Of a stretch of DNA of 64,000 nt, positions 5,256 through 58,859 are shown piece after piece. Source of the DNA: Xiphophorus maculatus (taxonomy: Eukaryota; Chordata; Actinopteri; Cyprinodontiformes; Poeciliidae). How positions within the stretch are numbered: the stretch's first letter is position 1; each line of letters starts with the position of its first letter. Below the pieces are notes generated by a model. It saw only the letters and a list, made by a program, of their open reading frames with translations, was not told the DNA's origin and did not search any database. The translations under genes and the position numbers were made by a program. The stretch spans positions 6,339,463-6,403,462 of the forward strand of contig NC_036456.1 in the NCBI RefSeq assembly GCF_002775205.1, given 5' to 3'.

Positions 5256-5907
5256 TCACAAACATTGTCAGAATTGTTACTGCGGTGGTTCTATTTCTGT
5301 ACTATCTTCATGTTCTTGTACTATTTCAATTTGGCCAGCTGTGCAAATACCCCAGTATCATACCACTCATAGTTCATACCAATACCAGGATGAAGAGGCT
5401 CGGTGAACGTGGTCCGGACTTCGAAGATTTGCAGCATTTGGTCGGAAGCTTGGTAAAAACTCAGAATTCCTGCCTGGTAATCCAGGAACACGCCGATCTT
5501 TTTGGAGCAAGAGCCCGGTACTTTCACATCGACGTCATTGTGTCGAAACTTCAGGGTGTCTCCTGAGCATTCTAGAGCCCAAGACTTGTCGTTTCTCCCA
5601 AACTCTGACTCGTCCGACGTTCGGTTGGCGTCTTTGTAAGCTACCGCCGCAGAGAGGGTGCGAGCGTGCCACTCCACCTCCCAGTAACACCGCTCTGTTA
5701 AAGCCTCTTTGCAGAGAACCTGTGGGAACTGTGTGAATCTGTTTGGATTAGTAGGATAGGGGATGGGTGAAGGCCTGATTTTACGTTTGTTGTCCATCAG
5801 GTTGAGGTTAATGTAGTTTGACGTGTCATCCAGTGTAAGGGGACGCCAATCTGCCAAGCAAAGCAGAAACAGAGTCACCACAGTAATAATTCTGACAATA
5901 TTTGTGA
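5256..5907. repeat. 44-base inverted repeat pair flanking the last TRIM exon
   Basis: The plus-strand sequence at 5256-5299 is matched by the reverse complement of 5864-5907 with about six differences; both contain ATTGTCAGAATT and end in TTTCTG. One arm is just past the TRIM stop codon. The other arm is in the preceding intron, directly upstream of the acceptor of the SPRY exon. Confidence 0.75.
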
Positions 5908-8900
5908 CCATTAAAGAAAGACATCTGTAGTTTGATTTCTTACAGCGCAAAAACTCCTCTCTGCTGTTGGGTGCAGGCGGAAGGGAGAAGTCAACGTAAG
6001 AGACTGTGAGAAGACACAACAGTACTTTTTAAGCGACGCTGGAAGAAAGCAAATCTTATACACACAGAAACTCTACTCACCCGTAGTTGAGATCTTGGGC
6101 CATGTCTCCTTCAGCAAAATGTCTGCTTTAGCTTTCAGCTCAGTCACACAGGCAGTCACATCTGTGAAAGAACGTGGCAGACCGGCACCCAGCGCAAAGT
6201 CTTGAAATGCAATGGAAATGGAGTTAAGCTGAAAAATATATAGAGAAAGCAATTAACGCTATAGAAACCAGCCTCTTGTTCTACCTTTTGTCTCGTACAG
6301 AGAGTCTGGATCCTCGGCGACTGAGAAACGATTCCTAGCTGGAGGCATGGATTCTGTTGTCCATGCCTGTTTCTGTCTTAAATTTGACCCAATTGCTAAC
6401 GTTTGGCCGTGATGTATGTAATGCGCCAGTTCGACGCGATGAAGCTTACCGTCAACAACCATCCTCCACTGTGAATTGAAATGTACCGAGTCGAATAAGA
6501 TGGCTGTTAATGTTAATTCAATATTTGGAAAGTTGGCCAACATGGACGTAAGGGGTTCACTTACGTCCATGTTGGCCATTGCCAAACTACAGGCAGACTA
6601 CAATTCTAAAACAGCGCAGAAAATGTCTCCTTCTGTTCTCTAGAAATCCAGCACAATGGGAGAAAGCCCAGACAGAGCAGGGAGAGGAAATTAGAATCGA
6701 ACAGAACTGTGTAGGACAGAAATGGCCAGGCTATACGTTAAAACAGTTGCTCTTTCATGTCCGTAGGGAGTCAATAATATTATTTGAAAAAGTCAACACT
6801 CATTATGAGTGTTCATTGTAATCACAGATGTATCGTTTTTATTTACTGGCACATCTTAAAAAAAGAAATAGCATCTAAAAGACGACATGTACCCTTTCTG
6901 ATTACCAATGAAAACAAATCTTTGTTGCCATGACAGTAACCAGACCCCAATTACTGACCAGTTTGTTCACTTTTCCACTTATATGTTTTATGTGTCTCTT
7001 GGTTGATACAAGTCTTTAAAGCTGGAAGGCATCCTTGCCATCATCCTAATCTTTACCTTTCACCATATATTCTCAAACAGACTTAAGTCCAGGTTCTGGC
7101 TCAGCTGCTCCAAAACAAGTAGCTACTTGTCTTTCAGGTGCCTTTGTTGTGGAGAAAATCCTTCTTTTCTGATTTGTAAAACTTTAATTTGTACAAAATG
7201 ATTAGGTGGCATTAGAAAATGGAAAAATGCTGAAGTGTCATTGGAAAGTAACACACACACACACACAAAAAAAAACAAAAAACGGAAACTTAAAGGAAGC
7301 CTAAATTCTTGCAAATGTTTTGATATGCTAAACAGGCCAATGGCGCTCTGCTGGGAGTTCGTTGGTAAGCCGGCTTTATTCAAGTCAGAAGGAAAAAGAA
7401 CTTCAGCAAGTGCACACAAGTCCGAACGCCGTCTATACCTGTCTAAGGGGGACAACGTCATCCCTGCTTGAAAGCCGCAGCAGTTGAGCGTCCCTCCCTC
7501 TCAGCTCGCCCAGCTCCTTCTCCAGCTGCTGCTTCAGCGCCCCGGCCTGAGCGAGGGCGCTCTTCTCCTGGGCTTCGATCAGCTGCTCCAGCTTACTGCG
7601 TCTGTTCTGCACGGACGAGATCAGCTCGGAGAACGCCTTGGCACAGTCTGCCTTTGAGGTCTGGGCACTGCTCTGTCGGAACAAACGCGGCGATTATTCA
7701 AGTTACATTCATAAAAGCTAAACTTCCCTCCTGGGGGATTCAATCAAACCTGCGGTTATTCTTTGCTCAAACTAAAATGACACTTAAAAGATAAAAAACA
7801 GGCTTTGATGGTTTGCTTATCTTTTGCCAGCAAATATTGCATGGCCCCAATGTTATGTTTTGGGTTTGCTTTAATAAATGAGTTATAGTTGCAATTCTTT
7901 AAAACTCAAATTGGATAGCAGGTTGGACCGACTCTTAGTGATTACAGTAGAGTCTACAAATTGTTGCGCTTCAGAAGAATTTTGAAGGTTTTTCAGCTCT
8001 CAACGTCTGGCTCCAACAATGTAGGATGTCTCTCTGCTGCCATCAAGTGGCGGCAGAGAGACATTGTTACCCGTAAGACTCGGTCTGGCACCGTATCAGA
8101 CAAACTAAATACTCAATTCCAGCTGAAAGTTTTCAGCAATACATCGCTGAGTCACGTCCGGGGGAGACGTGCTGTTCCTGCTTAGATCTTTGATCTTTAC
8201 ATTTCACAATAAAGATCAGTCTTTTGTTACAGTTCTCTAACAGTACATTCAGTTTTACTGATTACACCTCTTGAAACAAACAGACAAAAAAGGTCTATTT
8301 TAATTGTTTTGTGTTTTATGAGGCTATACCTTAACATTCTTCTCTGCTTGTATGATCGTCTCCAGCTCTTCTTCTCTTTGCTGGACTTTCTCTTGAACTT
8401 GCTTTCGAACTTTCTCCAGCCGTTCCTGGAAGAAACCAGAAGGCTCCCATTGAATATCTTTTGAATTGGACTGGGACACTTTATTCACATCTTTTTTTTT
8501 TTACCTTTGTTGTCTCCTTTAACTCCAAAACTGACACAAACTGGTGACCTTTATGTTTGTCCACCATGCACTCAGTGCAGATGAGCTGCTCGTCCGTCTG
8601 GCAGCAGAGGTCCATCAACTTCCGATGCTCGGTGCACACCTTGTCCCCTACTGGCATCGTAGCTGAGATCAGTTCATGCTTCTGCAACACGGGGACAGTG
8701 TAGTGAGGCTCAGCATGTTCGTCACAGTAAGACGCCAAGCACGTCAAGCAAGACTTGGTGGCTTTGTTTTGTCCGAGACTGCAAAAGTCGCAGGCGACGT
8801 CTGGCGGGGCGGCCAGGGTCAGAGACGGCGGCGGTGGTTGGGGATAACTCATCTTCAGCTTCTCCACAACCTGAAGAAGCAGGAAGGCAAGTCAGTTTGG

Positions 8901-13376: not shown

Positions 13377-16300
13377 TTAATTTTGTGGAAGAATCCTAAA
13401 TGTACTTCTTGCCTTCATAACAGCCTCATAACTCTTCTCAATTGCCTCCATCGGAGTTTTCGCTTCCTTAGATGCTTCCTGACCAATAGCAACGCCTCGT
13501 GCTCCTCCTGCGACAGCTGCAGTTACTGTGGCGACGCCTGCCACCACTCCGGTGGCCACGACTGCCACCTCACTTCCCGCTGCAGCCACTGCAGGTGCCA
13601 TCGTTGTTAGATTTTTCACGCGTTTCATCACTTCAGTGGGATTTTTCACAACTTTCATTACAACTTCCAATAATGCTGCCACTCCAAAAAATGCCCCCAA
13701 CAAAGCACTGGTGGCAGTACCCGCTAACTTGATCAGAAATTCATTAGACACAAAAGTTTTAGCCTGCTTCCTGATCTCCTGTGGGGGTAAGTACACTGCC
13801 AGATCTCTAATCTGCTGCTCTTGCTTCTGGATCCTTTCTTCTACGTGTCGCAGAACGGCATTGGTGTAGTAGGATCCGTTTTTTTCCACCATCATCTTGT
13901 CTACTGTCTGAAGGAATGCCTCTAACTGGACCTGGTTGTTCCTGTAATCATCTTGCCTGTTTCCGTTCCAGTGTTTATTATCAAACACATGGCACCGACC
14001 TTCGCACTTCTTCACCAGATTACTCAGATCCTCATTCTGACTGACAAACTCTTCGATTTTCTTCCCTTCTTGGAGCTGCTCGCCGTGAGTGAACACGATT
14101 ACAGCATATTTCAGAGCATCCTCTGAGAAACTATTGCATATTTCTTTGATAACCTGCTGCTCTTGCTTTGTGAATCTGCCAACTCTAAGTAAAATGAGAA
14201 AGATGTGCGGTCCAGGTGCGCACTCCGTGAGGCAACGCATTATCTCCGGATTCAACTCTTCTTTCGACTTGTCGGTGTCGAAGAAACCAGGCGTGTCGAT
14301 CAAATGGAGGCACCTCCCACTGACTGTTCTGGTCTCTGATTGACATGTTTGTGTGCCTGAGTTAGGAGAATGGCATATAGTAAAAACTTCCTCCCCCAGA
14401 ATGGTGTTAGCCAGGTGGCTTTTCCCAGCTCCAGTTTTCCCCAGCAGAACGATCCTCGTTGGACTGGAGTCTGGAAAGATTCAGATTGAAAAAATGAATG
14501 CGGAATTAAATTTGGTAAATTTTAGTACTATTACGTTTTCCATTGGTTTTTTTAATAAATTATTTTATCATATTTTCACAGAAGGGAGATAACAATGGCA
14601 CAATTTCATTTCAATCTTACAGGTTTCCTATTGTCTATACTGACCCTGATGTCGATCACGCTCCAGATCATTTTCAGTACATCTGTTGTACTTTATATCT
14701 TCTTGGACAGATTTGAAGACCTGTAGAGGAAATACATTCAAGTTTAATACAAGTCCAAGGATCCACCACTTCAATACAGATATACACTAAATTGTCAAAA
14801 CTAATGGGGTCAATTGCATTTACACACACCCAAATCTAATGACATCATATCTTTATTACAAAGGTTGCTAAAACTGTTGCCACACCTTTTTCAGACAAAA
14901 ACAACACATTGGTTATTTCAGGAGGACTGTCTATAATGTTTAGATGTGCATTTATGGGAATTTCTTTTTACTATTTTTACACCAATGAATTTGTTAGATC
15001 AGACACTGATGTTGGACAGGAAGGTGAGCAGCATTTCAGATATGCTGTCCGAATAAACCAAAAAATCTACAGGCAGGATTTCTATCAATAATTTGGAGTT
15101 ATGTTCCACAAAAAAAAAGAAATCTGTGAATAGGTGAATCCGCAAATACTGAACTGCAGATAGTTGGGGTTTCACTGTGGTTAGGACTCAAAGAATGTGG
15201 CTGTCAAGAAACATAAAATTGCTAAAATATTACTCTATATAGTTTAGCTTAATATGTCCACTTTTTAACAGTTAAAAAACCCCTTTGTTGTGAATCACTC
15301 AAGGAAAGAACATGTTTATTGTACTTTACCTCTACATCCTCTGGATCTGGTAGAACAAGGAGAACTCGAACTGGTGCGCTGGTGGTTCTCTCCTGTTCAA
15401 ATTTAGAGATCTCCTCCAGTAAAACCCTGGCTACCAGAGTGACTGGAAAACACAGAGCAATGCCAGTCCCAAGTGCAGGTAGGGCTACAGAGCCGAACCC
15501 TTTGCTCTCACAGGAAGTCAGAATTTGGTTGATGCCCAGTCGGAGAACCTGTAAAAACAAGTATTAGAAACAAGCTGAACATTATTTTTAACTGATCCAG
15601 ACAGACTAATTGTGGTGAAAATGCTCAGTTATCTCACCTGAACCGCGATTCCATCGTCTTCTGCATCCCACTGAACAAGGTTGAGGAAGAACACGACACC
15701 AAAAGGAACTCCAGTCAAATTTTCCTCTAGTATGACGTCACCAGGCCCCATTTTATCTTTTGACTTCTGTTTAACCCTTTGAGTCACATGACGACCAATT
15801 GCTTTACTGAGAATGTTTCCAACACGAGTAGACAGAGGATCGTTGAAGACCATGGGAGATACCACTGCATCTGTCTACAAACAGTTCAAAACCAAAGGTT
15901 ATCAACTTGCTTATGTTGACAGGTAAAATAGCAGCATATCAACAGTGCCATAACACTGCAATAATCAATCCACTTTAGAGAAAATAAGCTTAAAGTGAAG
16001 GAATTCTCACCTGCTGGCTTTCAATGGTCCCCTGAACAATCTCAACCTGGACAGGACCTTTGGGAGCTGCAGCTGTGGCTACATTTCGTCCATCAGACTC
16101 AAACTCCCTTTCAAGTGAATCTTTGTGTTCTGTAGGGTGGGCAGCACTTTGCTCCAGAAGATGCCTATCACATGCTTCTAGCATGGCCCTCACCACCTCT
16201 CCTCTGTCATCTATCAGTGAAATTGTCTTAAGACTCTTTCCACCCTCACTACAGAAATCCTTGACAGCACACACAATGGCGTCAGAGCAAACTGCGACGG

Positions 16301-19300
16301 GAATGCCAAACACTCCTGAGCCAATACACGGCATGGCGATGGACTTAAATTTCATCAATTCCGCCACACTCAGAGCATGCCGAACAGTTCTTTCCAGTAA
16401 CACCCTCTCCTTACCAGCTGCTTTTCCAGCCACAGGTCCAACAGCATGCAGCAGTCTTCTGCAAGGTAAATTACCCCCAATGGTCGCTACAACTTCACCC
16501 GTAGGGATTTGTCCTTTACGTTTCCTTAAAGAATCAATCTCAAGCTGTACGTCAGGACCACCAGCCCGAGTCAGAGCAGCAGCAATGCCTTCACAATGAT
16601 TCAGATCCTCATTGGAAGAGCTCACCAGGGCATCAGCCCCAAACGTGGTGATGTCTCCCTGATACACCATCAACTGAAGATCATCAGTAAGGTTGTAAGT
16701 GGCTACTGCAGTTTTTTCAGCCAAATGCAAAGTTCCCAAACTCTCAACTAAACATGGCTTATCCTCTATATCTGACATCTCTGTTTTCACCAGAGTACCT
16801 GCCACAACTGCTGTCCTCGCTGTGCTGACTTCATCTTTGTAGTGCTGTGCTGCAGCCTCATGCAGATCTTTGTGAGAGTGGTCTGGAGTACCACCACGCT
16901 GTTGGTCTTCCTCTCCTTTCCAGTAACTAAGTTCACCCACAGCGTCAGTTTGAGATAATCTTCTCACTAAAGTCTCTTCCTCCTTTTGGTAATGCTCAGC
17001 AGAGTAAAAACCAGAGGCGAGCAGTTCCTCAGCATCAGGGGAGTCCTTCAGCGCAGGACGCTTGTGTTCTTCTGCTTGTTCTTCAACTCCTTTACCACTC
17101 AGTGGGGCAGTTATCTCAGGAATGGGCTGCTGGTTCTGGTAAAAGCACAACAATAACAGATTTTACAAACATATATAAAGGCAACATGTTAAAATCTTAG
17201 CTGGTTCCTCATTTTCTGACTTTGCTTTCAATGAGAGTAGTTATATTTAAAACTACAACAGAGGTCTAGCATCCCATGTATCCGAGAAATCTTTTCTTTA
17301 ACAGCTTCCTTTTACCTTCTCCTTTACATATCACTTTTCTATCGACATACAGCAAACCACTAATACAGGCTTTTACAGCATTACTCAACAGGTTGGTAAT
17401 TATTAACGATCAATCAATCAAGTTTATTTGTACAGTGCATTTCAGCAACAAGGCATTTCAAAGTGCTTTACATCTTGACAACACATCAAATATGTTGGTC
17501 AATGTTCCATTTATTATGGTTCACAAGCAGCTCTAAACATGTAGGGTTTAGTCTTCATTTAAAGGAGCTCAGTGTTTCAGCTTTTTTGCAGTTTTCTGGA
17601 AGTTTGTTCCATATTTGTGGCACATAGATGCTGAAACCTGCTTCTCCATGTTTGGTTTCGGTTCTGGGGATGCAGAGCAGAACCAGAACCAGAACCTAAC
17701 AAAGGTTGATAGAGCAACAGCAGTTCTTTAATGTTTTGTGGTGCTAAGCCGTTCAGTGATTTACAAATTAACAGTATTTTAAAGTTTATTTGCTTATCTA
17801 AAGACTTCAGAACTGGGGTGATGTGCCCCGTCTTCCTGGTTTTAGTGAGAATGTGAGCAGCAGGGTTCTGATCAGCAGCAGGTGTGTGATTTTTTATTTT
17901 ATTTTTTATTTTTAGGCAGACCTGTGTAGACACGGCAATCAGTGAGACTAGAGATAAACAAAAGTTTATTAGTTTAGGATTCTTCTGCAGTAAATGTCAA
18001 AGATCACTTTTTCAGGTTGTCATGATCACATGGTATTTGTTTTGAATTTAAATCAGCATTTTGCCTACGTTTTTTTTTTCTTTGATGTTTTTCTGTAAAG
18101 AGAACTTCTTCCTGAATTGCACTAAAGAAATAAACCTGCCTTGCCTTAGCTTAGCCATCTGTCATGCTCAAAGTTCAGGAGTGTTAACTCTTCAGACATC
18201 ACTGTACTAATGCAAAATACTATGCTATATGAAAAAAGTGCTCATATAGACATAGACAGTCTTATATCTTTCAAAATCGCTGTTATTTTTCAACACTATC
18301 TGAAAGAAAAAACATGAAGAATTGAGATGTGGATCAGAAGATTATAAAACATCTGAAGGCCCTGTTACATGTTTGTTTTGTCGAATTAGAAACCCAGAAG
18401 GAAACGTTGTGCTGACCTCTGCTGGCGCTGCAGCGGTGGAGTCATGTGACAGGTCGCCCCTGACACTCAACACCAGGCGACCGTCAGTGAGCTCAACGAC
18501 ATGCTTAGATCTCCTCAACACTTCCTGTTGATCTACAGCACAAAGCATAACAGAGGTTAGCATATGAATATATATGTATATATACATAGTGCAATATATG
18601 TGAATTTGGCTTTTATTGTCAATCTTGGACCGGCTCAAACATCTGTTCACATAATCAAGAGAGTTTTATGGAAATAACCATCCAATGAGAATAAGACACC
18701 AGTACTGAGTTTCATGTGAAAATCTGGAGACTAAGATTGTAACCAGACTCCACCTCTAGCAACAACTAATCTTTATTTATGCAAACAAGGAGCTGTTAAC
18801 CTCCATGTGGCAGATTTTACAGCCTAGTATCTTTACCCAGAGCTCCACCTACAAAAATTCCTGAACTATCCCTTTGACCCCAATGACTGGAAAGCGAAAC
18901 CGAGATTACATCTGTGCTTGAATCCCCAGCTTTATGACAGTACACCACTTGACAACACACTAACTGATTTTACTTTATCTTCTGGTAGTTATTAAAAAGC
19001 TTAGAAGTGAACTATTAATAAATGTTGTACAATATTTCAAACTGCAAAGCATTTTAGGACATTTTAATCCGTATACATTTATTTCAAACCATCACTGTGT
19101 TATGTAAAGCCCGCTTTGGTGGTAACCTAAGCCAAATTATGCTGACTATTGCTAAATTTCTGCCTGTTATTTAGTAAGTGCACTGAACATTTTCAAAAGT
19201 GTACTGACTAACATGCCAATACGATTCAGACGGCATATTTTAATATTTGCCCCAGAACCAGATGAACTCCTGGCTTTATTTCAGCTCTAATCTCTAGTTT

Positions 19301-19929
19301 TACGTCAAGTCAGGTTATGCAGTGGCTTTAAAGACCAACAACTGATTTTACTAAGCATCATAACAGCATAACTGCGTTTTTAATCACCTTTTACAGTGCA
19401 TTGCTCTTTGCCACGCTGTCAGTGTTTCAGCTGCTCTTTGCCTTTGGCAGCTTGAGTTAAGTTTCACTTTCCAGAGAAATTTTCCGTTTCAATTTGTCAA
19501 TATTGATGTTCATACAGGCAATCGGCTATAACATCATAATTATTAATAACAGCGTTAATAATAATAAAAAAACAACAATAATATTAACAGTAATAATAAT
19601 ATTAACAGTAATAATAATAGTTTTAGGACTTTTAATGGTCGTGCGTGTTTTGAAGGACATTTTAAAAACGCAGGTCACTCGGGCTTCTTAAAGCAACCTG
19701 TCTACGTCGCAACACAAACAAAATGCAAACTATAATCTCGTCTTTCTGTACCTTCCTGATTTCTGAACGCGATGCTGTAGACGTTGTCAGCCACTGTTGT
19801 CAATGGACCGCAGTCTCCCCCGCCGGACCGTCTGTGAACACGGAAGTAGGTCTCAGTTTTCCTTCTGTTCTTTTCCACAAGAAGCGTCCGGCACCGGAAA
19901 TAAACGGGGTGCTGGTAACTGTCCCCCAT
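13377..19929 (-). CDS. gene A: RRM-like / macro / macro / AIG1 GTPase fusion protein
   Basis: About 1014 residues in seven exons: 19752-19929, 18417-18532, 16011-17135, 15638-15874, 15330-15548, 14645-14720 and 13377-14470. All have GT-AG sites and matching phases. Residues 1-98 resemble the RRM-type N-terminus of PARP14, PARP9 and DTX3L (SGGGDCGPLT, then QQEVLRRSKHVVEL). Macro 1 lies at about 244-424 (QGDIT, NEDL, AAALTRAGG, PCIGSGVFG). Macro 2 lies at about 455-625 (VQGTIES, SPMVFNDPLSTRVGN, PALGTGIAL) and is PARP14-like. The AIG1 domain follows: P-loop GKTGAGKS at 661-668, DTPGFFD and VFTHGEQ, ending in Ala/Gly-rich hydrophobic helices. No ATG precedes the P-loop in the GTPase exon, so it is not an independent gene start. 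No ADP-ribosyltransferase domain is present. Macro domains bind or remove ADP-ribose; AIG1 GTPases oligomerise on membranes. The start MGDSYQHP aligns with gene B. The combined role is inferred. Confidence 0.85.
17411..17975 (-). mobile_element. L2-type LINE 3' fragment in gene A intron 2
   Basis: The minus strand encodes the end of an L2-clade reverse transcriptase ORF (FKILL, SLNGLAPQ, LHPQNRNQTW). The 3' part continues into a sequence with CAAGTTTATTTGTACAG and CAACAAGGCATTTCAAAGTGC on the plus strand. It is 5'-truncated and decayed. Gene B lacks it at the matching position. Confidence 0.7.
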
Positions 19930-23840: not shown

Positions 23841-26800
23841 TTAATTTTGTGGCAGCATCTCCTTCATAACAGCCTCAGAACTCTTCTCAATTGCCTCCAT
23901 CGGTGTTTTCGCCTCCTTAGATGCTTCACATCCAATAGCACCACCTTGAATTCCCCCTAAAGTAGTTGCACCTACTACAGCAACACCTGCCACGGCACAA
24001 CCAGCCACGACTGCCACCTCACTTCCCGCTGCAGCCACTGCAGGTGCCATCGTTGTTAGATTTTTCACGCGTTTCATCACTTCAGTGGGATTGTTTACAA
24101 CTTTCATTACAACTTCCAATAATGCTGCCACTCCAAAAAATGCCCCCAACAAAGCACCGGTGGCAGTACCCGCTAACTTGATCAGAAATTCATTAGACAC
24201 AAAAGTTTTAGCCTGCTTCCTGATCTCCTGTGGGGGTAAGTACACTGCCAGATCTCTAATCTGCTGCTCTTGCTTCTGGATCCTTTCTTCTACGTGTCGC
24301 AGAACGGCATTGGTGTAGTAGGATCCGTTTTTTTCCACCATCATCTTGTCTACTGTCTGAAGGAATGCCTCTAACTGGACCTGGTTGTTCCTGTAATCAT
24401 CTTGCCTGTTTCCGTTCCAGTGTTTATTATCAAACACATGGCACCGACCTTCACACTTCTTCACCAGATTACTCAGATCCTCATTCTGACTGACAAACTC
24501 TTCGATTTTCATCCCTTCGTGGAGCTGCTCACCGTGAGTGAACACGATTACAGCATATTTCAGAGCATCCTCTGAGAAACGATCGCATATTTCTTTGATA
24601 ACCTGCTGCTCTTGCTTTGTGAATCTGCCAACTCTAAGTAAAATGAGAAAGATGTGCGGTCCAGGTGCGCACTCCGTGAGGCAACGCATTATCTCCGGAT
24701 TCAACTCTTCTTTCGACTTGTCGGTGTCGAAGAAACCAGGCGTATCGATCAAATGGAGGCACCTCCCACTGACTGTTCTGGTCTCTGATTGACATGTTTG
24801 TGTGCCTGAGTTAGGAGAATGGCATATAGTAAAAACTTCCTCCCCCAGAATGGTGTTAGCCAGGTGGCTTTTCCCAGCTCCAGTTTTCCCCAGCAGAACG
24901 ATCCTCGTTGGACTGGAGTCTGGAGAAATGTTGAGATTGATGATGTTAATACATAATATAATTTTAAACCTTTTTTTTAGTACTGTCAGTTTTTTTCTTG
25001 CTTTCTAATGTTTATTTGATAATCTTCACCGCAATAATCCTGACTAAAAACAGATTTTATGGTAACTTATTTGAAGGGGTTTTCATAAGACTGACAAGAC
25101 CCTGTTATGAACATGAAGGTGGTCTTCATGAATGTCTGTGACTGTTGTCACAAAGTGTCTGTTGGTAAATAATGACACTTTTAATGCAAATTTACATAAC
25201 ATGTCACATTGAAAGTGCATTAAATGAGTCAACTTAGCATTATTTGGTAAATAATTACATTTTTATGCAACGTTGCATTAAAACTTACATTAAACGTCAA
25301 TTAAAAGAGTCAACTTTGCACAGTTTATGACAGAGCCTTATGCACACCTCTTCAAATAAAGTGTTACCAAATTTATTTAAATCTTATTGTTCCCATATTG
25401 TCTACCCACCATGATCATGTTCAGTAAATCTGTTGTACTTCATATCTTCTTGTACACACTTGAATATCTGTAGAGACAAGATATTCAAATTTAGGACAAG
25501 TAACAAATTATGGGATCCCCCTGTGCAATGCAGATTTACACCATATTGCCAAAATTAATGTCATTTTCATTTACACACAACTAAATCAAATGACAACCAA
25601 CTTTTATTTCAAAGGTTGCAAAATAATTTGCCCCACCTTTGTTCAGCAAGAACCACCTCAGTTCTTAAGAAAGACTGTCTACAGAAATGATTGACCGTTC
25701 TTACACCAAAGCAATTGTGAGATCAGACAAGAAGACGAGCATTATCTTCGATATGATCGGCAAAAAAATAAATAAATAAAATATATATATTTTATAAACG
25801 TGAATAGTTGAATCCACAAATATTGAACTGTAGATAGGAAGTTTTCCACTGTAGAACTGCTAAAATATAACTATGTATTAGCTAATATTTTATTTTTTTA
25901 AAGTTAAAAAACCCCTTTGTTGTGAATCACTCAAGGAAAGAACATGTTTATTGTACTTTACCTCTACATCCTCTGGATCTGGTAGAACAAGGAGAACTCG
26001 AACTGGTGCGCTGGTGGTTCTCTCCTGTTCAAATTTAGAGATCTCCTCCAGTAAAACCCTGGCTACCAGAGTGACTGGAAAACACAGAGCAATGCCAGTC
26101 CCAAGTGCAGGTAGGGCTACAGAGCCGAACCCTTTGCTCTCACAGGAAGTCAGAATTTGGTTGATGCCCAGTCGGAGAACCTGTAAAAACAAGTATTAGA
26201 AACAAGCTGAACATTATTTTTAACTGATCCAGACAGACTAATTGTGGTGAAAATGCTCAGTTATCTCACCTGAACCGCGATTCCATCGTCTTCTGCATCC
26301 CACTGAACAAGGCTGAGGAAGAACACGGCACCAAAAGGAACTCCAGTCAAATTTTCCTCTAGTATGACGTCACCAGGCCCCATTTTATCTTCTGACTTCT
26401 GTTTAACCCTTTGAGTCACATCTCGACCAATTGCTTCACTGAGAATGTTTCCAACACGAGTAGACAGAGGATCGTTGAAGACCATTGGAGATACCACTGC
26501 ATCTGTCTACAAACAGTTCAAAACCAAAGGTTATCAACTTGCTTATGTTGACAGGTAAAATAGCAGCATATTAACAGTGCCATAACACTGCAATAATCAA
26601 TCCACTTTAGAGACAAGAAACGTTTTAACATTAATTCTCACCTGCTGGCTTTCAATGGTCCCCTGAACAACCTCAACCTGGACAGGACCTTTGGGAGCTG
26701 CGGCTGTGGCTCCTCTGGCTACGTTTTGTCCAGCAGAATCAAACTCCCTTCCAAGTGAATCTTCGCTTCCTGTACCGTAGGCGGCACTTTGCCCCAGAAG

Positions 26801-29236
26801 CCGCCTGTCAGATGGTTTTTGCATGGCCCTCACCACCTTTATAGAGCTCTCATCGAAACGTGGCTCCTCCTCTACATCCAACGACTCTGCGTTCACCAAA
26901 GTACCTCCCACACCTGAGATCCTTGATCTGCTGTCTTCTCCTCTGTAGTGTTGAGCTTCACCCTCATGTGGATTTTCATCAAAATGGACTGGCGTACCAT
27001 CACCCAGTTGGTCTTCCTCTCCTTTCCAGTCACTAGTTTCAACCACTGCATCAGTGAGGTCAGGAATGGACTGCTGGGTCTGTTGAAAGCATAACAGCAA
27101 AACAAAAACAGAATTTACAAAGTAAACATATATAGGAAGGGTCCCATGTAAAAATCATAGCAGACATATAACTAGATTTTCTAGTTATATTTAAAACTGG
27201 AATAACATTTTAGCATCCTAGAAGTCTTTCCTTTGAACATTAACAGCTTTCTTGGTCATTCTTCTTCCAATTTTACTTTTCTATCGCCAAACAACTGAAA
27301 TACAGCAAACTCCTAACACAAGACCAACACCCAGGCTTTCATACAATCAGTCGATAAGTTGGTAATTATTAGTTTATGGGAATTCCACGGTAAATGTTAA
27401 AGATTACTTTCTTGGGTCATCTTTTCAGGCTAAGCTGTAGGCAAGGCAGACTTATTTATTTAGTACTCTGTCTGTCTGTCTGTCTATCTAATGCAAAATA
27501 CCACTTATTTAATGCATATCAAACATCTGTCTAACCAACTATATTTTTCAAAATTGCAGTGTTATTTATTTACTTTTTTACACCTCCTGAAAGAAAAACA
27601 AAGAATTTACATGTGGATCAGACATTTAGCAGATTATAAAACATCCCTGAAGGCCCTGTTACATGATTGTTTTGTTGAATTAGAAACCCAGAAGGAAACG
27701 TTGTGCTGACCTCTGCTGGCGCTGCAGCGGTGGAGTCATGTGACAGGTCGCCCCTGACACTCAACACCAGACGACCCTCAGTGAGCTCAACGACATGCTT
27801 AGATCTCCTCAACACTTCCTGTTGATCTACAGCACAAAGCATCATAAATTCATGCATGCATACAAAATTATATATTTGTGTGCGTGTGTAATAAAATGGT
27901 ATCATTGTGGACCTACAGGGCGAGCTCAGACTTCTGTGAAAATAATCACGGAAGTTTTATATGGAAATAACCATCCAATGCAAATAGGGAAGCAGTGCTG
28001 AGTTTCATGTGAAACTCCAGAGACCAAGATTGATTCATGGTTGAAATATAATGTAGTTTCAGACCCTTTGAGTCACATGAGGACCAATTAGTTGGTCACA
28101 TTATCTGACCAAGTAATTGGTCACATGAGGACCAGACTCCACCTCCAGCAACAACTAATCTTTATCTATGCAAACTAAGAGTCGTCTATACTAATAGAGC
28201 AGATTTTACAATCTACTACCTTTACCCAGAGCATACCTACAAAAAAAATCTTGAACTATCCCTTTAAAACTAATGACTTTAGTTTTAAAGTCATTACCTC
28301 CACTCTTGAGTTACATTGGCTTAGTGATTCCCAGGCTATATTACAGTACACTGCTTGACAACTCACTTTGGTTTTGTCATCTTTTAGTTACAGAACATAA
28401 TTTTGCTGGTTGTATGAACTGAAATAACCATAATGTTGTACAATACTTTAAACTACTGAGCATTTTAGGACATTAGAATGTGCCTTTATTTCTAATAATC
28501 TACTGTACCGCCTTAGCGGTGACACCTGTATAAACAACATTTTGGTTACCATTGCTAAATTTCGTTCACCTGTGTGGAAGTGCAATGAACATTTCCAAAA
28601 ATGTCCTTCTGAGCAACATAATATAGTAATACAAGACTCAGAATATTTTAATATTTGCTCCGGCTTCATAAATTAAATTCCTACTTATATTTCAGTGTCA
28701 TTCTGAATCAGTCATGTTACGCAGTAGTTTTCGTTATGTAAAAAAAAAACAAAACAGATTTTACTAAGCTTCATACTAGTGTAACTGATCATTTTTTACA
28801 GTGCGTTGCTCTTTGACACTCTTGTCAGTTTTTCAGCGGCTCTTTCTGGCCTTTGGCAGCTTGAGTTAAGTTTCATTTTTTTTAATTTCCCGTTTCCAAA
28901 ACGGGACGACAATATTAATAACATTAATAACAACAAACACAACGTGCACGACAACATAGCCGCGTGCGTACGTGTTGAAGGACATGTATCAGGTCTCCCT
29001 TGCTTCTTAAGGCAACGTCGCAACACAAACAGCAAAAGAAAGTCTTGTGTTTCTGTACCTTCCTGACTTTTGAACGCGATGCTGTAGAAGTTATCAGCCA
29101 CTCTGGTTAGTGGACCGCAGTCTCCTCCGCCGGACAGCCTGTGAACGCGGAAAAACATCTCAGTTTTCTTGTTGTCCTTCTCCGAAAGAAGACTGTGACA
29201 CTCGAAATAAACGGGGTACTGGTAATTGTCCGCCAT
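23841..29236 (-). CDS. gene B: RRM-like / single macro / AIG1 GTPase fusion protein
   Basis: Tandem paralogue of gene A, about 774 residues. Exons are 29059-29236, 27711-27826, 26642-27079, 26270-26506, 25962-26180, 25410-25467 and 23841-24919, with the same splice phases as A. Residues 1-98 are the RRM-type region (MADNYQYPVY, SGGGDCGPLT). Exon 3 is 438 bases instead of 1125 and lacks macro 1 completely; the frame is kept. Macro 2 (VQGTIES, DPLSTRVGN, PALGTGIAL) remains at about 225-396. The GTPase has GKTGAGKS at 426-433, DTPGFFD and VFTHGEQ. The tail differs from A over the last 60 residues (GGIQGGAIG in place of GGARGVAIG; MLPQN end). Exon 6 is 58 bases against 76 in A. Nothing in the frame is broken, so it looks functional. 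Confidence 0.85.
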
Positions 29237-30180: not shown

Positions 30181-31050
30181 AAATTAATCAAGTTTATTAT
30201 TTTATTTTTCAGCAACAAGGCAGCTCAAAGTGCTTAACATTATAAAAACACGACACAGTAAACACATTTTGCCATGTGCTGTCATTACACATCAACATAT
30301 TGGTCAGTGTTTCACTTATGATGATTAAAACTCACCAATAAACAGATGAGTGTTTAGTCTTGATTTAAACACACTCGGTGTTTTGGCTGTCTTGCATTTT
30401 TCAGGAAGTTTGTTCCAGATTTCTGAAAGCTGCTTCTCCATGTTTGGTTCTGGTTCTGCAAATGCACAGCAGAACCAGAACCAGAAGACCTGAGAGGTCT
30501 GGAGGCTTGGTACAACGCCAGCAGATTTTTAATGCCTGCCTTTAACCGTTCAGTGATTTATAAACTAAACAATATTTTAAAGTGTATTCTCTGAGCTACA
30601 GAGAACCAGTGTAGGGGCTGGTGTGATCTGCTCTACCTTCCTGGTTTTAGTGAGGATGTTAGCAGCAGCGTTCTGGATCAGCTGCAGCTGCCTGATAGAT
30701 TTTTTTAGACAAACCTGTAAATGCACTGTTGCAGTAATCAATGCGACAAAAGATAAACGCATGGATGAGTTTCTTTAGATCTCGCTGAGACATTAGTCCT
30801 CTAATCACCTGGAGATGTCCTACAGGTGATAGAAGGCCGACTTTGTAACTGTCTTTATGTGGCTCTGAAGGTTCAGGTCAGAGTCCATCACTATTCCCAG
30901 GTTATCAGGCCTGATGGCTGGTTTTTACTTGTAATAACTGAAGCTGTGCATTGACTCTAGATCGTTCCTCTTCAGGTCCAAAGGCAATAACTTCAGTTTT
31001 GTTTCTGTTCAGCTGGAGAAAGTTTTGGCACATCCAGACATTTCTAACAA
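30181..31050 (-). mobile_element. L2-type LINE fragment
   Basis: It has the same 3' family sequence as the copy in gene A intron 2 (CAGCAACAAGGCAGCTCAAAGTGC). It runs further 5', including the minus-strand equivalent of CAGCTGATCCAGAA-TGCTGC and the region before it. It is 5'-truncated with no intact ORF. Confidence 0.7.
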
Positions 31051-41080: not shown

Positions 41081-41090
41081 GAAAGTGAAA
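41081..41090 (+). promoter_or_regulatory. interferon-response-like element (ISRE/IRF site) of gene D
   Basis: GAAAGTGAAA fits GAAANNGAAA, the core that IRF family factors and ISGF3 bind. A candidate 5'UTR exon follows directly and ends at a good donor (GTGTTG then GTAAGT, 41169/41170). It contains no ATG. The same 10-mer stands near the gene C start. Function is inferred. Confidence 0.6.
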
Positions 41091-42082
41091 GTGGTCTAGA
41101 TCAAGAGGCACTCCCATCCTGCACCGTTACAAGATCCTCTCAGAGTTTCCACAATAAATATCAGTGTTGGTAAGTTATGTTCACTTATTTGCAGTACTTC
41201 AAATTAGAGACTACATTTGTAGATCCTTGACTTAAACTAGTTAGTTTAGGTTAAACTTTATTAATCCCATAGGGAAATTGGGGTTATCTGTTGCTCACAC
41301 ATTAATTCACATCCACACAGCATTAAAATCATACAGCTGGAGACATCCATCAAAGGTACAAGGATGTCTTTTATCCTCAAAGCAACAGTCGGCTGGCAGA
41401 GAAATGTGATTAGGTCTCTTTGTGTGTAAAGAATGAGCAACGTCTCGTATAAATGCAACTTGTTTACCAGTGAAGGGTGGATTTACAAGTTTCACTTTCT
41501 GTTTTCTCTCTGTCAGAGCACTCGGACTCTGAGGTGCAGAGAACACGTTTTCAAGACAGACATTTTGATTGAGGGTTATCTCTCATTCTGTTCCAACTGG
41601 AAAATATTTACCTTACTTCAAATGGGAATAAACTCACAAATTCTGAAGAAGACAAAGCAAAGAAGTTTATTTCACTAAGCTGATAAGCTGATATCATAAG
41701 AAGGTAAAATAAGACAAGATGTCTTTGACGAAAAGCAGATTTATATTAGGAAATATGGCAATGCAGCTACTCACTTTAGCTTATATCTACAGTTGGAGAG
41801 ACAGAGTACACAGTTTAAACTGTGACCAAACTTTATCTTTCCACACCACAAATAGCTAAAAAAAAATCACAAAGAAAGTGAAAACAGTTTCAGAATTCAC
41901 TGGTAGAGAATGTAGTTTTAAATGTGACACCATGCAGTTGCAAGAAAAAACTTTATCTGCTTCATGCGACGGTTTTCTGTAAGATTCCCTAAATGTATAG
42001 ATGAGGCTATCCCTAACGTTTTATGTTTCTTACTGTACTCTATCATTTCCAGGAAGAGCAGAGGTTAAATATACAGGTGAAG

Positions 42083-44127
42083 ATGGTGATGCACATTGAC
42101 AAAAAGAGTACCTGCCACTCCACTGACAATAAGGCCGACTACTCTGTCCACAACAAAGCATGGATGAAAATAACAGGCCCTGCAGCTGCGCCGCTTGGGG
42201 ACGTTTTCTTTGGATCGAGTGTTATGGTACAAGCAGAACTCACGGCTGCAGGAAGAGAAGACGAAGTTAAAGTTCAAAAAGTCACCGCTGACAGGAGACA
42301 GATTGTAGAAGAACACTCTGTAAATGTAGGTGTTCATAATGCAACCTGGTCAGCGCCACAAGGACAACGAGCAGAGGGAATGAAACCAAAGAGAGGTAAA
42401 GACCCTTAGTGGTGGTAAACAGAAATGTGCAATAGTCATAAATCCGTCCCTGTGAAGCTCAGGGACAAGAAAGCAATAGACAATGTAAGAATTTTCTTTT
42501 TCTTTACAATTTTTCTTCTCTGGTGGCAGCATCAAAGGTCTTCATCAAAGGAACAGATGGAGTTCAGAAGTGCATCAAAGGTAACTAGAGACTACAGCGA
42601 TTTACAGTTTTCTGTTATCCTTCCAAATGAACATGATGATTTAATTTTCACTATTGCTTCGTAGTGCTGAGAGCCTACAGGGTCGTCCTGTTGGGAGAAA
42701 CCGGGGCTGGGAAAAGCACCCTTGGAAACTCCATCTTAGGAGAGGAAGTGTTTGAACCTGGCAAGACGACTGACTATCAAATTCAGTCCAAATCTGCCCA
42801 CGAAAGAAGAATCACTGTGTTGGACACTCCTGGTTTCTCTCATTTTGACCAACCTGAGGCAGAGCTGAAGGATGAGATAGCGAGGTGTACCGCAAGGTGC
42901 CGTCCCGGTCCCCATGTTCTTCTGATTGTGCTGAACGTAGAGGAATCCGCAAAGCAACAGTCGGCTGTAATTGACAAAATCTGCCAGTGTCTTCCAGAGG
43001 AAGCATTTAAATATGCTGCCGTTGTTTTTACTCATGGCCCTAATCTAATGACCATTGAAAAGTATATCAATGAGAATCAACATCTTAAGGATTTGGTAAT
43101 GAAGTGCAGTGGCCGATATCAGGTAGCTGATCATAAGAACAGCCCGAAGGGTGACGAAAACGACTCCCAGGTGTCACAGCTGATCAGCATGATGGATAAG
43201 ATAGTGATAGAAAACAAAGGAAGGTGTTACACCAACGAAACCCTCCAGGCACATCAGAGAGACAAAAATAACACAAAATTAAGTAACCCAAAACATCCAA
43301 ACGACGACAAAAAATGTAATGCCAACAACAACTTGTGGATTAGCTTGTCAGGCCCTGAGGGGAACTTGGTGGCAGAAGCTTTCTTTGGGTCAGATGTTGC
43401 AGTTTGGCAAACAACACAGACATCCACCAAGACTGGAGAATGCACTACTAGTAAACAGGGAGAATATGAAGTACCACGTTCTGAACCAAAAGGGAGAGAT
43501 GAAAAGTACAAGAGTCCATCTGAAACAAACTCCACTTCAATGGAGGAGGAAGAGAAAAATGAAAAAGAAAGAGAGTTTGATACAGAAACAAACGAGGCGC
43601 CTGAAAAGTCGGACAGGAGGAAGGAAACAGTAAGGAAAGAATCTAGAGGTTTATGGGGATTTGTAACTGATTTACTTGGGGCAGTAATGGGAGGTTTAGG
43701 GGCAGTTGCAACAGGTCTTACTGGGATGATAGTGGGAGGTTTAGGGGCAGTTGCAACAGGTCTTACTGGGATGATAGTGGGAGTTTTAGGGGCAGTTGGA
43801 ACAGGTCTTACTGGGATGATAGTGGGAGTTTTAGGGGCAGTTGGAACAGCTATAACTTGGGTGGCAAAAATAACTGCAGGTATATTATCTTTGGTAGCAG
43901 CAGCATGGTTTCTCACTTGGGTCAAGAAAATGCATGACAAGATCATCGACTTTTATGAGATGATCAAGAAGAACATCGGAGTCGTCCTTCTGGTCGTCGC
44001 TTTTTACTTCCTGCTGTTCCTGTCGTTTTGTGACAGAGTACCAATGGCTGGAACCATTTTCCTTTCAAGTGGAATATTGGTGATGTTTTTGGTCATACTG
44101 TTGTTATTCATTGTCATTGTGAAATAA
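42083..44127 (+). CDS. gene D: membrane-anchored AIG1/GIMAP GTPase
   Basis: About 608 residues in three coding exons: 42083-42395 (the exon itself starts at 42053), 42530-42580 and 42665-44127. Both internal junctions are phase 1. The AIG1 domain starts with GETGAGKS at 132-139, followed by DTPGFSH and VFTHGPN. After it come a charged linker (EEEEKNEKERE), three and a half copies of a 15-residue Gly-rich hydrophobic repeat (about 464-521), and two strongly hydrophobic segments near 558-575 and 584-608, so the C-terminus probably anchors in a membrane. GIMAPs commonly use C-terminal anchors on ER, Golgi or lysosome-type membranes. The N-terminal exon contains a module (WMKITGP, then FFGSSVMVQ) that recurs after the GTPase domain (WISLSGP, then FFGSDVAVWQ). 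The start is the first ATG in the open frame after the 42053 acceptor; the upstream 5'UTR exon (to 41169) is predicted. Confidence 0.85.
43690..43863 (+). repeat. 45-base coding tandem repeat in gene D
   Basis: Three full units (43690-43734, 43735-43779, 43780-43824) and a partial fourth. Each encodes GGLGAVATGLTGMIV or a close variant (GVLGAVGTGLTGMIV). The unit length is a multiple of three, so copy-number changes keep the frame. Confidence 0.95.
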
Positions 44128-53232: not shown

Positions 53233-56138
53233 CTACAGGTCCAGTGCCTTGTAGGCAGCTGTTATATATGCAAGAATAGTCTTAATAGCTTCTTGTGTAC
53301 CAAGAAAGGCTTTCAATAGAAGATTTATTGTAATGTCTTTTATTGTCTTTAAAATCTCACGAACTCTTCTTATAGCTCTCTTCATGATTCCTTCTTTTGC
53401 AACTTGTTGTTCTTGTTCTCGAAGAACTGGCAATTCTTCATCAACTTCCAGTTCTTCATAAGGAATTTGTTCTTCTTCATGTAGAAACTGTTGTGTCATT
53501 TCCTCCTCTCCTTGCAGCAAACCATTGGTGTAGTACTTTCCATCGTTTTGCTGTTCTTCATGAACAACCGGTTCATGAACAGCTTGCTGTTCTTGTTGAA
53601 CAATTGCAAGTGCTACACGTTGTGTCATTTTCTGCACTGTTTGCAGAAGCTCATTGGTATAGCAGTTCCCTTTGTTTTTTTCCACCGTCTCTTCAATTGA
53701 TTTGAGCATCTCCTTCACCTGGAAGGCGTTGTTCCTATAGGTCTCAACAGAATGATTGTTCCAGTGTTCATTATCTACAACATGGCACCGACCACCACAT
53801 TTTGCTACTATTTCCATCAAAGATTCGTTTTGGCTAATATATTCTTTGATATTCTGCCCTTTAGGGAGATTCTCACCATTAGTAAAAACTACTGTTGCAT
53901 ATGGAAACACTTGCTCAGAGAAGCTTTCAGTAATTTTTTGAATAATTTCTTTTTCCTGGTCTGTGAAACGTCCTAGTTCAAGTACAATGAGGAAGGCATG
54001 CAGCCCAGGCGAATACTCTGTGATAAATCTCCATATTTCGTCCTTCAGTTTTTCTTCAGGCATCTTTGTATCAAAGAAGCCTGGTGTGTCAATCAGAGTA
54101 ATTTGTCTCCCATTGAGTGAATCAGTTTGTGCCTGACATGGACTTTGACCAGAGTTAGCACCAGGGCAGACAGTGAACTTGTTTTCTCCAAATATGGTGT
54201 TTCCAAGACTGCTTTTCCCAGATCCAGTTTTCCCAAGAATCACAACTCTTCTCAAATCAGACTCTAAAACATAAAAATGTCCGTCATTACTATAACACTG
54301 AAGAAATGTGAACAAAATCAAGTTGATTAATGTTTGGTGAACAAAGTCATACTTTGTATTCAAAGCTGAATATTAGACATAGACAGTTGTCAAACAGAAA
54401 ACATTGCAGCTTGGCCCTGGAGAAAACATATATATACTGCCCGCTAGACCCAGTGTTAGAGATTTTTGGTCAGCCTCCTGCATCACCGCCCTCTGGATAT
54501 TTTGTAGCAGGCTCCGCCCTGACTGCACTGTTTTGGTCAGACTGCGATGTTTGTTTTTTCTTGTGTTTTCTTGAACTCTGTTCTGCTGTAAAGTAAGGTT
54601 TGGTCCATGTTTCCTTGATGAGATTGATATTTTTGCCTCACCTTACCACCATTTATTTGGTTATAGAACAGAAAGAGCCTATTGCCTGAGTTTACAATAC
54701 TTTGATATTATAAACTCTCAGGCAGGCTTTCAAATATTGTATTCTGAAAAGGAAAAAGTTAGAGAAAATAAATGAGGGTGACTTACCATCAGGAAGACAT
54801 CTGTTACCAGTGTTGATGCAGTCCCAGTCGTTTTCGTTTGACACAGCCCTCTAGTGTACAAGAAAATGGTTTATTTATGTAGGAATTTTTTTTAAGTCTT
54901 TAGGCAGTAATGATGAAAATAAGGTGTACAGAGACAATAAAACACTTTATCAACACAGAATTTGGTAGAACCTAATGATGTGCAAATATTATATTCACAC
55001 CGCCAAACATCTGCACCTAAAACCCAATTTCCAGATTTTTTAAAATCTTCTATTAATATTCATATTATGTCTTATTATATTTTAGCAATCATATTATTAC
55101 CATTATATTGAACTCTAGAGGATCAACTGTTCACAAGGTTTCTAGAGGCCTGTCCTGGTCATGTTGGTCAAGAAGATTTGAGAGTGAAGAAAGAGTATGC
55201 GTCCAAAGTGCTGCTGAGTCCTACTAACCTCTTCTGGAGCTGTGGAGACACTGGTGCTGGAAGAGTCAGAAGATAGAGGTTTCTCTGTGACAATTAAGAC
55301 CAGAGGACCTGAGGGCAGCTCCACTGTGTGCTCACATCTCATTAGGACTTCCTGCTGGTCTACAACAAAATGGATCACAATCATTATTTTGAGCTTTAAT
55401 AAGGTATACATGGTGCAATTACAACCAAATTGTTGTACGATCAACAGTCAACTGTTGATAGAAATATCAAAGACATTTTAAATTTAAATGAAGATAAGAA
55501 ATAATACAATGTAAAATACAATGATTTAAATTATATCACATTATATACCAGGTGATCAAATCAGGGTCAGTTCAGTTGACGGGGTCAATCAAATTGCCTG
55601 TAGAGATTTTTAAGGTCCAGCAAGAGTCAATATTCAGTGACACAATATTAACACAGTCTGGCAATGTGTCAATACGCTTCATGACGTCTCATTAACCCAT
55701 CACTGCATTTTACAAAAAATTACTTCCTTTAAACCTTCCTGAACTAAATAGACACACCGGATGCCAAACAACTAAAGAGAAAGTTAGTATAGAAAAAAAG
55801 TCTGAAAAAAAAAACTCCTACATCATCTGTGCTTTGTTATTGTCTCTGTCATCTTTCAAGTTTGTTCCACTCACTAAATTAACTTTTTTAAAGGCAATTT
55901 ACACTTGAAATAAATAATTTACACCTGGAACTGATAGACAGTATTTTACTTTACCTCTTTGAAGTTTGAAAGCGATACTGTAGGTCTCATCGGCTGCAAT
56001 TGTTACTGGTCCACACGCTCCTCCGCCTGACTTGCGTTTAATCTGAAAATAATTTTCTACTTTCTTCTTATTTTGTTCTGAGAGAACGTCTGAACACTCG
56101 ATGAAAACGGGGTATGGATAACAGTCCTCCATCTTCAT
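53233..56138 (-). CDS. gene C: RRM-like / AIG1 GTPase fusion without macro domains
   Basis: About 469 residues in four exons: 55955-56138, 55229-55359, 54787-54850 and 53233-54263. Phases 1, 0 and 1 join correctly. Residues 1-105 are the same RRM-type region as genes A and B (YPYPVFIEC, KRKSGGGACGP, DQQEVLMRCEHTVEL). A 64-base linker exon matches exon 6 of A in position and phase. The GTPase exon follows with GKTGSGKS, DTPGFFD and VFTNGEN; here the G4-like THG is TNG. The conserved post-domain motif appears twice (GNCYTNELLQ, then GKYYTNGLLQ), followed by a Glu/Gln-rich region (EEEQIPYEELEVDEE) and a basic, amphipathic C-terminus. The start may be MKMEDC or, two codons on, MEDC, which aligns better with A and B. 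Macro domains were either lost here or gained in the A/B lineage. Confidence 0.85.
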
Positions 56139-56389: not shown

Positions 56390-56930
56390 TAGTCGGCCTT
56401 CTATCACCTGAAGAACATTTCCAGGATTAAAGGACTAATGTCTCAGCCAGATCTAGAGAAACTCATCCATGCGTTCATCTTCAGTCGTATTGATTATTGC
56501 AACAGCGTCTTCACAGGTCTGTCCAACAAATCAATCAAACAGCTGCAGCTGATCCAGAATGCTGCTGCTGGCGTTCTCACTAAAACCAGGAAGATAGAGC
56601 ACATAACACCAGTTTTAAAGTCCCTCCACTGGCTCCCTGTAGCTCAAAGAATAGACTTTAAAATACTGTTGTTAGTTTATAAATCACTTAACGGCTTAGC
56701 ACCACAATACATTAAAGATCTGCTTTTATTGTATCAACCTTCCAGGTCTTCATGTTCTGGTTCTGGTTCTTCTCTGCATCCCCAGAACCAGAACCAAACA
56801 TGGAGAAGCAGCATTCAAATTCTATGCACCACAAATCTGGAACAAACTTCCAGAAAACTGTAAAACAGCTGAAACACTGACTTCCTTTAAATCTAGACTA
56901 AAGACCCACCTGTTCACTGTAAATTTAAGG
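56390..56930 (+). mobile_element. L2-type LINE 3' fragment
   Basis: The plus strand has an open frame at 56438-56863 with the reverse transcriptase end typical of L2-clade LINEs (FSRIDYCNSVFTGL, LQLIQNAA, LHWLPVAQRIDFKILLLVYK, NGLAPQYI). The 5' part of the element is missing. It belongs to the same family as 17411-17975 and 30181-31050 but is better preserved. Confidence 0.85.
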
Positions 56931-58815: not shown

Positions 58816-58859
58816 CCAAAAAACTAACACAATGAACAGATTCTGGCTAGGTTCCTATT

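Follow-up and report, generated by a model that had tools for sequence, protein, structure and literature searches.

GIMAP GTPases and the ADP-ribosylation system of PARP14 and PARP9 are both immune, poorly understood in mechanism and usually studied separately. Human PARP14 and fish PARP14-like proteins carry an N-terminal RRM_PARP14_1 domain and tandem macro domains, of which PARP14 has three (PMC10221186; here and below, a citation refers to individual passages of the article). GIMAP7 and the teleost GIMAP7-like proteins carry an AIG1 GTPase domain with a GKTGAGKS P-loop and a DTPG motif. Putative C-terminal transmembrane segments have been described in GIMAP1, 2, 4, and 5, and a coiled coil beside AIG1 in all human GIMAPs (PMC3100574). 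Fishes can possess nearly 190 GIMAP genes, and those of zebrafish respond to virus exposure (PMC9245644, citing Balla et al. 2020). Here we analyzed a window of 64,000 nucleotides of DNA from the platyfish Xiphophorus maculatus (contig NC_036456.1 of assembly GCF_002775205.1, positions 6,339,463 to 6,403,462, forward strand; all coordinates below are those of the window), in which a minus-strand gene, gene A (19929-13377), is predicted to encode a PARP14-type head and a GIMAP-type GTPase in one protein.

Gene A resembles PARP14 in its N-terminal RRM and tandem macro domains and GIMAP7 in its P-loop and DTPG motif. It differs from PARP14 in having two macro domains, a C-terminal AIG1 GTPase and no match to the PARP catalytic domain (PF00644; no Pfam match up to E 1 in gene A, and none at 0.01 in its paralogues, genes B and C). 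It differs from GIMAP7 in the head of about 650 residues, made up of RRM and macro domains, that precedes the GTPase. Because the catalytic domain has no match, the predicted protein is not a PARP; its GTPase makes it a GIMAP, one that carries a PARP14-type head. Salmonid and moray RRM-macro-macro proteins (e.g., P0193 and P0141), several of which are annotated as PARP14-like, have the head of gene A but, unlike gene A, stop soon after macro 2 and lack AIG1 (15 of the 16 salmonid entries and the single moray entry).

The initial annotation knew of no described protein with this domain order. The literature agrees, since full-text searches, whose coverage omits most subscription journals and includes one query with 20 of 1,024 matching papers listed, found no recognizable description of the fusion. 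The passages retrieved mention, in the single article that contained both terms, GIMAP and macrodomain separately, in bacterial systems (PMC8195603), snail AIG1 domains combined with death, CARD, and kinase domains (PMC7053062; a term look-up in this article did not find RRM), salmon structural variants that involve a GIMAP8 gene and, separately, a PARP14-like gene (PMC7560756), and an expansion of GIMAP8 in anchovy (PMC13403563). Proteins of this kind already have database entries, labeled "uncharacterized" in many cases and otherwise "PARP14-like" or "GTPase IMAP family member 7." The fusion thus has database records, most of them lacking a descriptive name, and is undescribed as far as the literature was searched.

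Structure of gene A and its paralogues

The gene A model consists of seven minus-strand exons:

19752..19929, minus strand: exon 1, start codon and N-terminal portion of the PARP14-type RRM (SGGGDC)
18417..18532, minus strand: exon 2, remainder of the RRM, 98% identical to its counterpart in gene B
16011..17135, minus strand: exon 3, acidic linker, the entire macro domain 1 and the start of macro domain 2
15638..15874, minus strand: exon 4, middle of macro domain 2
15330..15548, minus strand: exon 5, end of macro domain 2
14645..14720, minus strand: exon 6, a 76-nt linker exon that sets the phase from macro 2 to the GTPase, with an FKSVQE-type sequence that recurs in other fishes
13377..14470, minus strand: exon 7, complete AIG1 GTPase, hydrophobic C-terminal tail and stop codon

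All internal exon boundaries have AG acceptors and GT donors with matching phases, and the coding chain of 3042 nt specifies 1014 amino acids with no internal stop. This open frame recovers the chain that had been proposed to link an N-terminus of the SGGGDC type, two macro domains and a complete AIG1 GTPase, including junctions 18417/17135, 15330/14720, and 14645/14470. The order of domains is a PARP14-type first RRM, macro 1, macro 2, the AIG1 (GIMAP) GTPase and a hydrophobic tail. Profile searches against Pfam bore out the assignment to GIMAP-type GTPases and PARP14-like RRM and macro domains, with RRM_PARP14_1 (PF23222) at residues 19-83 (E 4.6e-10, 39.7 bits, cut-off 27), Macro (PF01661) in two stretches (E 5.5e-34, 117 bits, cut-off 22) and AIG1 (PF04548) at residues 656-868 (E 2.6e-57, 194 bits, cut-off 27). 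Exon 5 alone scored 18.8 bits with the Macro profile, under the cut-off of 22.

Sequence searches of solved structures placed macro 1 closest to PARP14 macrodomain 1 (3q6z, E 2.7e-34). The two-macrodomain PARP14 entry 3vfq matched the macro 1 query with E 6.7e-51, and PARP9 matched it less well (E 8.8e-25). Macro 2 showed weaker similarity to PARP14 and macroH2A (best E 1.5e-9), and the GTPase was closest to GIMAP7 (E 2.8e-44). The same kind of search gave no convincing PDB relative for the RRM, so its naming rests on Pfam. Structure prediction was unusable for exon 3 alone (mean predicted local distance difference test score, pLDDT, 37.7) and gave a fair model of the GTPase core alone when exon 7 was predicted with five window rows (pLDDT 57.2).

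Two further minus-strand genes of the window carry the RRM and the AIG1 domain:

23841..29236, minus strand: gene B, a paralogue with RRM, macro 2, and AIG1, macro 1 deleted in frame, 774 aa; exons 29236-29059, 27826-27711, 27079-26642, 26506-26270, 26180-25962, 25467-25410, and 24919-23841
53233..56138, minus strand: gene C, with RRM and AIG1 and no macro domains, 469 aa; exons 56138-55955, 55359-55229, 54850-54787, and 54263-53233

Gene B has the seven exons of gene A with all phases kept, and its exons 3, 6, and 7 are shorter by 687, 18, and 15 nt, all multiples of three. The absence of macro 1 results from a 229-codon in-frame deletion in exon 3. In gene C a short phase-setting exon lies between the RRM and AIG1, and the RRM profile exceeds its cut-off in all three genes (34.7 bits in gene B and 44 bits in gene C). 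The initial annotation had taken the repeat of the arrangement in gene B as an argument against a splicing artefact, and the argument holds: gene B keeps its phases despite insertions and deletions, and gene C too joins an RRM to AIG1. A candidate fourth fusion at 63.8 kb was rejected, as no RRM was found upstream.

Relatives in other fishes and history of the fusion

Relatives were collected by protein searches with three queries: exon 3 (9 proteins), exon 7 (best 120 of 1243 matches, 19 of these 120 being fused proteins) and the macro-2 and linker region (91 proteins; this search covered proteins of about 330-1048 aa). The pooled set comprised 210 proteins, whose domains were assigned by phmmer with gene A's own domains as queries. 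AIG1 was also present in 65 of the 91 macro-2-region relatives, a biased estimate of its share since the query, 208 residues of a Scatophagus relative, came from a protein that itself has AIG1. By count these 65 span 38 named fish species, X. maculatus included, with 12 supplied by Salarias alone; the species are presumably all percomorphs except Hucho hucho. No relative turned up when viral and prokaryotic contigs were scanned. Within the pooled set, macro 2 precedes AIG1 in 69 of the 210 proteins, from many fish families, and the RRM is kept in 39 of the 69; 27 RRM-macro 2-AIG1 relatives have no detected macro 1. Three proteins (P0130, P0131, and P0159) have two macro-2-type domains before AIG1 or the order AIG1-macro-AIG1, which suggests further shuffling.

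A search of other teleosts for the order of gene A had been proposed, and the full RRM-macro-macro-AIG1 order was found in 12 of the 65 proteins, with the linker recurring. The species include Amphiprion, Acanthochromis, Melanotaenia, Cololabis, Stegastes, Oreochromis niloticus, Brachyistius, Siganus, Characodon, Gambusia, and X. couchianus. For seven of the 12 the RRM is also listed in the precomputed Pfam column; the other five, among them those of Amphiprion, Acanthochromis, O. niloticus, and Brachyistius, have a partial RRM match only and none in that column. The X. couchianus protein (P0198, LOC114157094, 1016 aa), an uncharacterized gene model, shares the four domains of gene A, spans all its junctions and is identical at 973 of 1013 aligned residues, with 40 substitutions and few gaps. 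The Gambusia affinis protein (P0180) is 87% identical to gene A.

The stretch between macro 2 and the P-loop, formed in gene A by the ends of exons 5-7, is shared almost unchanged by Gambusia and X. couchianus with gene A. An FxSxQE-type pattern, composed after inspection of such stretches, matched the FKSVQE-type motif in 53 of the 69 proteins with macro 2 followed by AIG1, compared with 3 of 42 AIG1-only proteins (those with 20 or more residues before the P-loop) and 47 of 1380 stretches drawn at random from fused proteins. Two relatives are encoded by single open frames on short contigs: P0147 (979 aa; macro 1, macro 2, and AIG1; 2937 nt, contigs up to 4568 bases long) and P0184 (543 aa; macro 2 plus AIG1; contigs up to 1889 bases long). 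Because the window genes have introns at these places, the contigs most likely derive from spliced RNA, a retrocopy being the alternative. Their label, lgn, presumably denotes an assembly of read archives. Since the same fusion is predicted in dozens of spiny-rayed fishes, the gene A fusion looks real by comparative evidence, and a single transcript would be expected in platyfish.

The AIG1 exons of genes A, B, and C begin at a phase-1 acceptor, and a phase-1 acceptor also fits, by eye, the AIG1 exons of the genes at about 42.67, 48.61, and 63.81 kb. An upstream gene that ends in phase 1 could therefore be joined by exon shuffling, with exon 6 supplying the phase. A PARP14/PARP9-like gene would have contributed its 5' exons (RRM, macro 1, and macro 2, without the PARP catalytic domain), which came to lie before the phase-1 AIG1 exon of a GIMAP gene.

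A quick tree of AIG1 domains was built from 83 chosen rows (43 of 74 fused proteins, 35 others, and five window rows); 29 of its 79 inner branches are open, and two of the 28 chosen stand-alone rows were lost at the motif and length filter. Forty-two of the 46 fused rows fell into one 46-row set together with four GIMAP7-like rows (Shimodaira-Hasegawa-like approximate likelihood ratio test, SH-aLRT, 88), with architectures intermixed. Gene C, Hucho, and two Siganus rows lay outside this set. Strict monophyly of the fused AIG1 domains was rejected (approximately unbiased test, AU, p 9e-37) because the four GIMAP7-like models fall inside. A clade of 44 fused rows, without gene C and Hucho, plus the four GIMAP7-like rows, a group adjusted after the tree had been seen, was not rejected (AU p 0.88), nor was the addition of gene C (p 0.50), whose AIG1 lies beside stand-alone GIMAP7-like proteins and whose RRM is closest to a Kryptolebias fusion protein (57%). 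Inclusion of Hucho was rejected (p 9e-9): the AIG1 of this macro-macro-AIG1 protein (P0191) groups with a GIMAP8-like protein of Salmo trutta, so the salmonid fusion would be a separate event or a merged model. The architecture label changes 12 times on the tree for RRM-macro 2-AIG1 and nine times for RRM-macro 1-macro 2-AIG1. The simplest history, drawn from this weakly resolved tree, would be a single main fusion in early percomorphs, after which macro domains were lost repeatedly.

Predicted function and alternative explanations

With moderate confidence, we read gene A as a real, single-transcript immune gene of percomorphs whose product is a GTP-switched, probably membrane-held scaffold that would dock on ADP-ribosylated targets. 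The AIG1 domain would bind GTP and oligomerize as GIMAPs do, and the hydrophobic tail would anchor the protein at a membrane. The RRM and macro modules would dock on ADP-ribosylated proteins or RNA from the interferon-induced PARP14/PARP9 system, and some mono-ADP-ribose might be removed where the macro 1 loops are intact. ADP-ribose binding, GTPase switching, membrane anchoring, and an antiviral role are what we infer for the fusion protein, and its targeting to ADP-ribosylated sites or membranes is plausible. The GTP-binding motifs G1 (GKTGAGKS) and G3 (DTPG) are present in genes A and B, and D[TM]PG occurs in 74 of the 75 fused sequences with a G1 match (77 inspected). The tails of A and B each contain two regions over a transmembrane-like hydropathy threshold (899-926 and 942-973 in gene A), and the end of the gene A tail, of the AKTPxEAxEK type, is common to the window GIMAP at 48.6 kb.

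Macro 1 of gene A has SSSNEDLNHCEG in loop 1 where human PARP14 has NASNEDLKHYGG, and keeps the Asn of SNED and the VF pair. The first Gly of the pair, which is Glu in gene A, is presumably the neighbor of PARP14 G832, going by construct numbering. Macrodomain 1 of PARP14 and of PARP9 removes glutamate-linked ADP-ribose, the PARP14 G832E substitution reduces this removal activity, and mutation of PARP9 macrodomain 1 impairs its recruitment to DNA damage (PMC10499325). In hydrolase macrodomains, Asn or Ser and Gly in loop 1 and hydrophobic-aromatic residues in loop 2 are important, and hydrolase activity has been lost repeatedly (PMC10221186). The loops were surveyed in the 18 AIG1-fused relatives with a whole macro 1 (P0156, with a partial macro 1, was excluded). 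The first Gly of the pair is kept in 10, replaced by Glu in seven and by Ala in one; by reading, nine keep the whole hydrolase set (Asn, Gly-Gly, and the hydrophobic-aromatic loop 2) and the other nine, poeciliid and goodeid included, depart from it. Because half of the relatives keep the set while gene A is substituted, the fused protein may erase or read ADP-ribose in some fishes, and in the platyfish a reader or a module that does not bind is the likelier role.

Several observations weigh against this scaffold reading. As to function, in macro 1 of gene A S takes the place of the first loop Asn and E that of the leading Gly in the human GG pair, and macro 2 is without the loop motif, so ADP-ribose binding by gene A is not assured. 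Macro 2 of gene B scores under the Pfam cut-off (20.5 against 22 bits). Parts of both macro domains of gene A also exceed the transmembrane-like threshold, which is therefore non-specific, and gene C has no stretch above it. The interferon-element-like GAAANNGAAA occurs 15 times in the window, where 6.55 occurrences would be expected (a count this high arose in 1 of 100 shuffles), with three sites in gene A intron 1 and one about 107 bases ahead of the gene C start. No such site lies directly upstream of A or B, and for that reason the element was not used as support. As to the join, 26 of the 91 macro-2-region relatives lack AIG1; by reading, these comprise the 15 salmonid entries, the moray Gymnothorax, and 10 entries from percomorphs, with a PARP catalytic domain in two of these last (P0181 and P0210). 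Exon 6 of A matches that of B at 86% of nucleotides, a level no higher than in the flanking introns (85% and 87%). Gene B has an in-frame Met in exon 6, a few fish models begin at or near the GTPase exon, and most relatives are computed gene models that could share errors.

The departures in the macro loops would fit a head that is an interaction or decoy module, in which the RRM and macro folds pair with and tune PARP9, PARP14, or DTX3L and bind no ADP-ribose. Consistent with such a module, gene B and the 27 relatives noted above have no macro 1, and macro 2 has no catalytic loop. The nine relatives with an intact macro 1 loop set fit ADP-ribose use in those fishes, and we regard this alternative as rather unlikely. 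An improbable alternative is that the head is a passenger on an ordinary GIMAP, a product of architecture churn in a fast-duplicating cluster with macro domains of little function. The frequent architecture switches on the AIG1 tree fit this view, as does the ratio of nonsynonymous to synonymous substitution rates (dN/dS) of 0.87 in exon 3 between A and B (81 differences); the same argument for exon 6 was dropped, as nine differences are too few. The placement of macro 2 before AIG1 across many fish families and the retention of the RRM in all three window genes and in most macro-2-AIG1 proteins argue against a passenger.

The initial annotation had named a promoter and upstream coding start of the GTPase exon's own as one result that would speak against the fusion. 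A scan for start exons upstream of exons 6 and 7 of genes A and B (from ATG to donor, with six GT-type tetramers, at least 15 nt) gave nothing convincing: intron 5 of either gene contained none in phase for exon 6, and the short candidates for exon 7 (three in A and six in B) had no A/B counterparts except those that end at or near exon 6's own donor. Gene A has no in-frame Met in exon 6 or in exon 7 before the P-loop. It is thus very improbable that a neighboring RRM-macro gene and a GIMAP with its own promoter and start were joined on paper: the GTPase-only models (P0016, 372 aa, which starts at a Met within the exon-6 sequence, P0088, and P0092), the Met at the corresponding place in gene B and the possibly merged Hucho model point that way, but the start-exon scan, the continuous frames of P0147 and P0184 and the recurrence of the linker motif across fishes point the other.

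Returning to the scaffold reading, we offer tentatively a more specific version in which percomorph ADP-ribose-reading GIMAPs assemble on PARP14-marked membranes during infection, with macro 1 an eraser, a reader, or absent by lineage and paralogue in the manner of an arms race. The recurrent natural fusion suggests that the GIMAP and PARP14/PARP9 systems meet in one pathway, and a macro 1 that is intact, changed, or missing by species provides a natural comparison of reader and eraser forms.

Probable exchange between genes A and B, and the surrounding window

Genes A and B show a patchwork of identity, complete in exon 5 and intron 4, high in exon 2 (98%), exon 4 (97%), and intron 3 and exon 7 (96%), and lower in exon 1 (82%) and introns 1, 2, 5, and 6 (83-89% of aligned bases; 83-87% for introns 1, 5, and 6). 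The identical or near-identical patch covers 15874-15330 in A and 26506-25962 in B. This pattern points to recent gene conversion or exchange. An X. maculatus database protein (P0201, 753 aa) matches gene B exactly over residues 2-212 and gene A exons 4-7 exactly over its last 541 residues. The model joins 29236-26642 with 15874-13377 and skips the intervening exons, four in B and three in A; it is probably a chimeric gene model caused by the near-identical exons, a read-through transcript being the alternative.

Other features of the window are as follows:

17577-17996 (minus strand), 56533-56902, and 30287-30705: shared dispersed repeat, the first copy in gene A intron 2
60578-61639, minus strand: open Tc1/mariner-type transposase frame, 353 aa (PF01498, PF13358)
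58306-58854, minus strand: GIMAP-type hydrophobic tail without AIG1 in the same frame, a split gene or remnant
5321-6028 and 8481-8891, minus strand: TRIM-like gene with B-box and PRY/SPRY frames, close to the GIMAP cluster

The dispersed repeat explains much of the extra length of gene A intron 2 over that of B, and its reading frame, which has no Pfam match, presumably resembles the end of a long interspersed nuclear element (LINE) reverse transcriptase. Four of the 15 GAAANNGAAA sites lie upstream of the GIMAP at 42.6 kb, in 41081-42502 and no farther than about 1.6 kb from it. In this plus-strand gene (42017-44127) a similar unnamed stretch flanks the AIG1 exon on both sides (KAWMKITGPAAAPLGDVFFGS and NLWISLSGPEGNLVAEAFFGS, by eye); the upstream one had no significant Pfam match.

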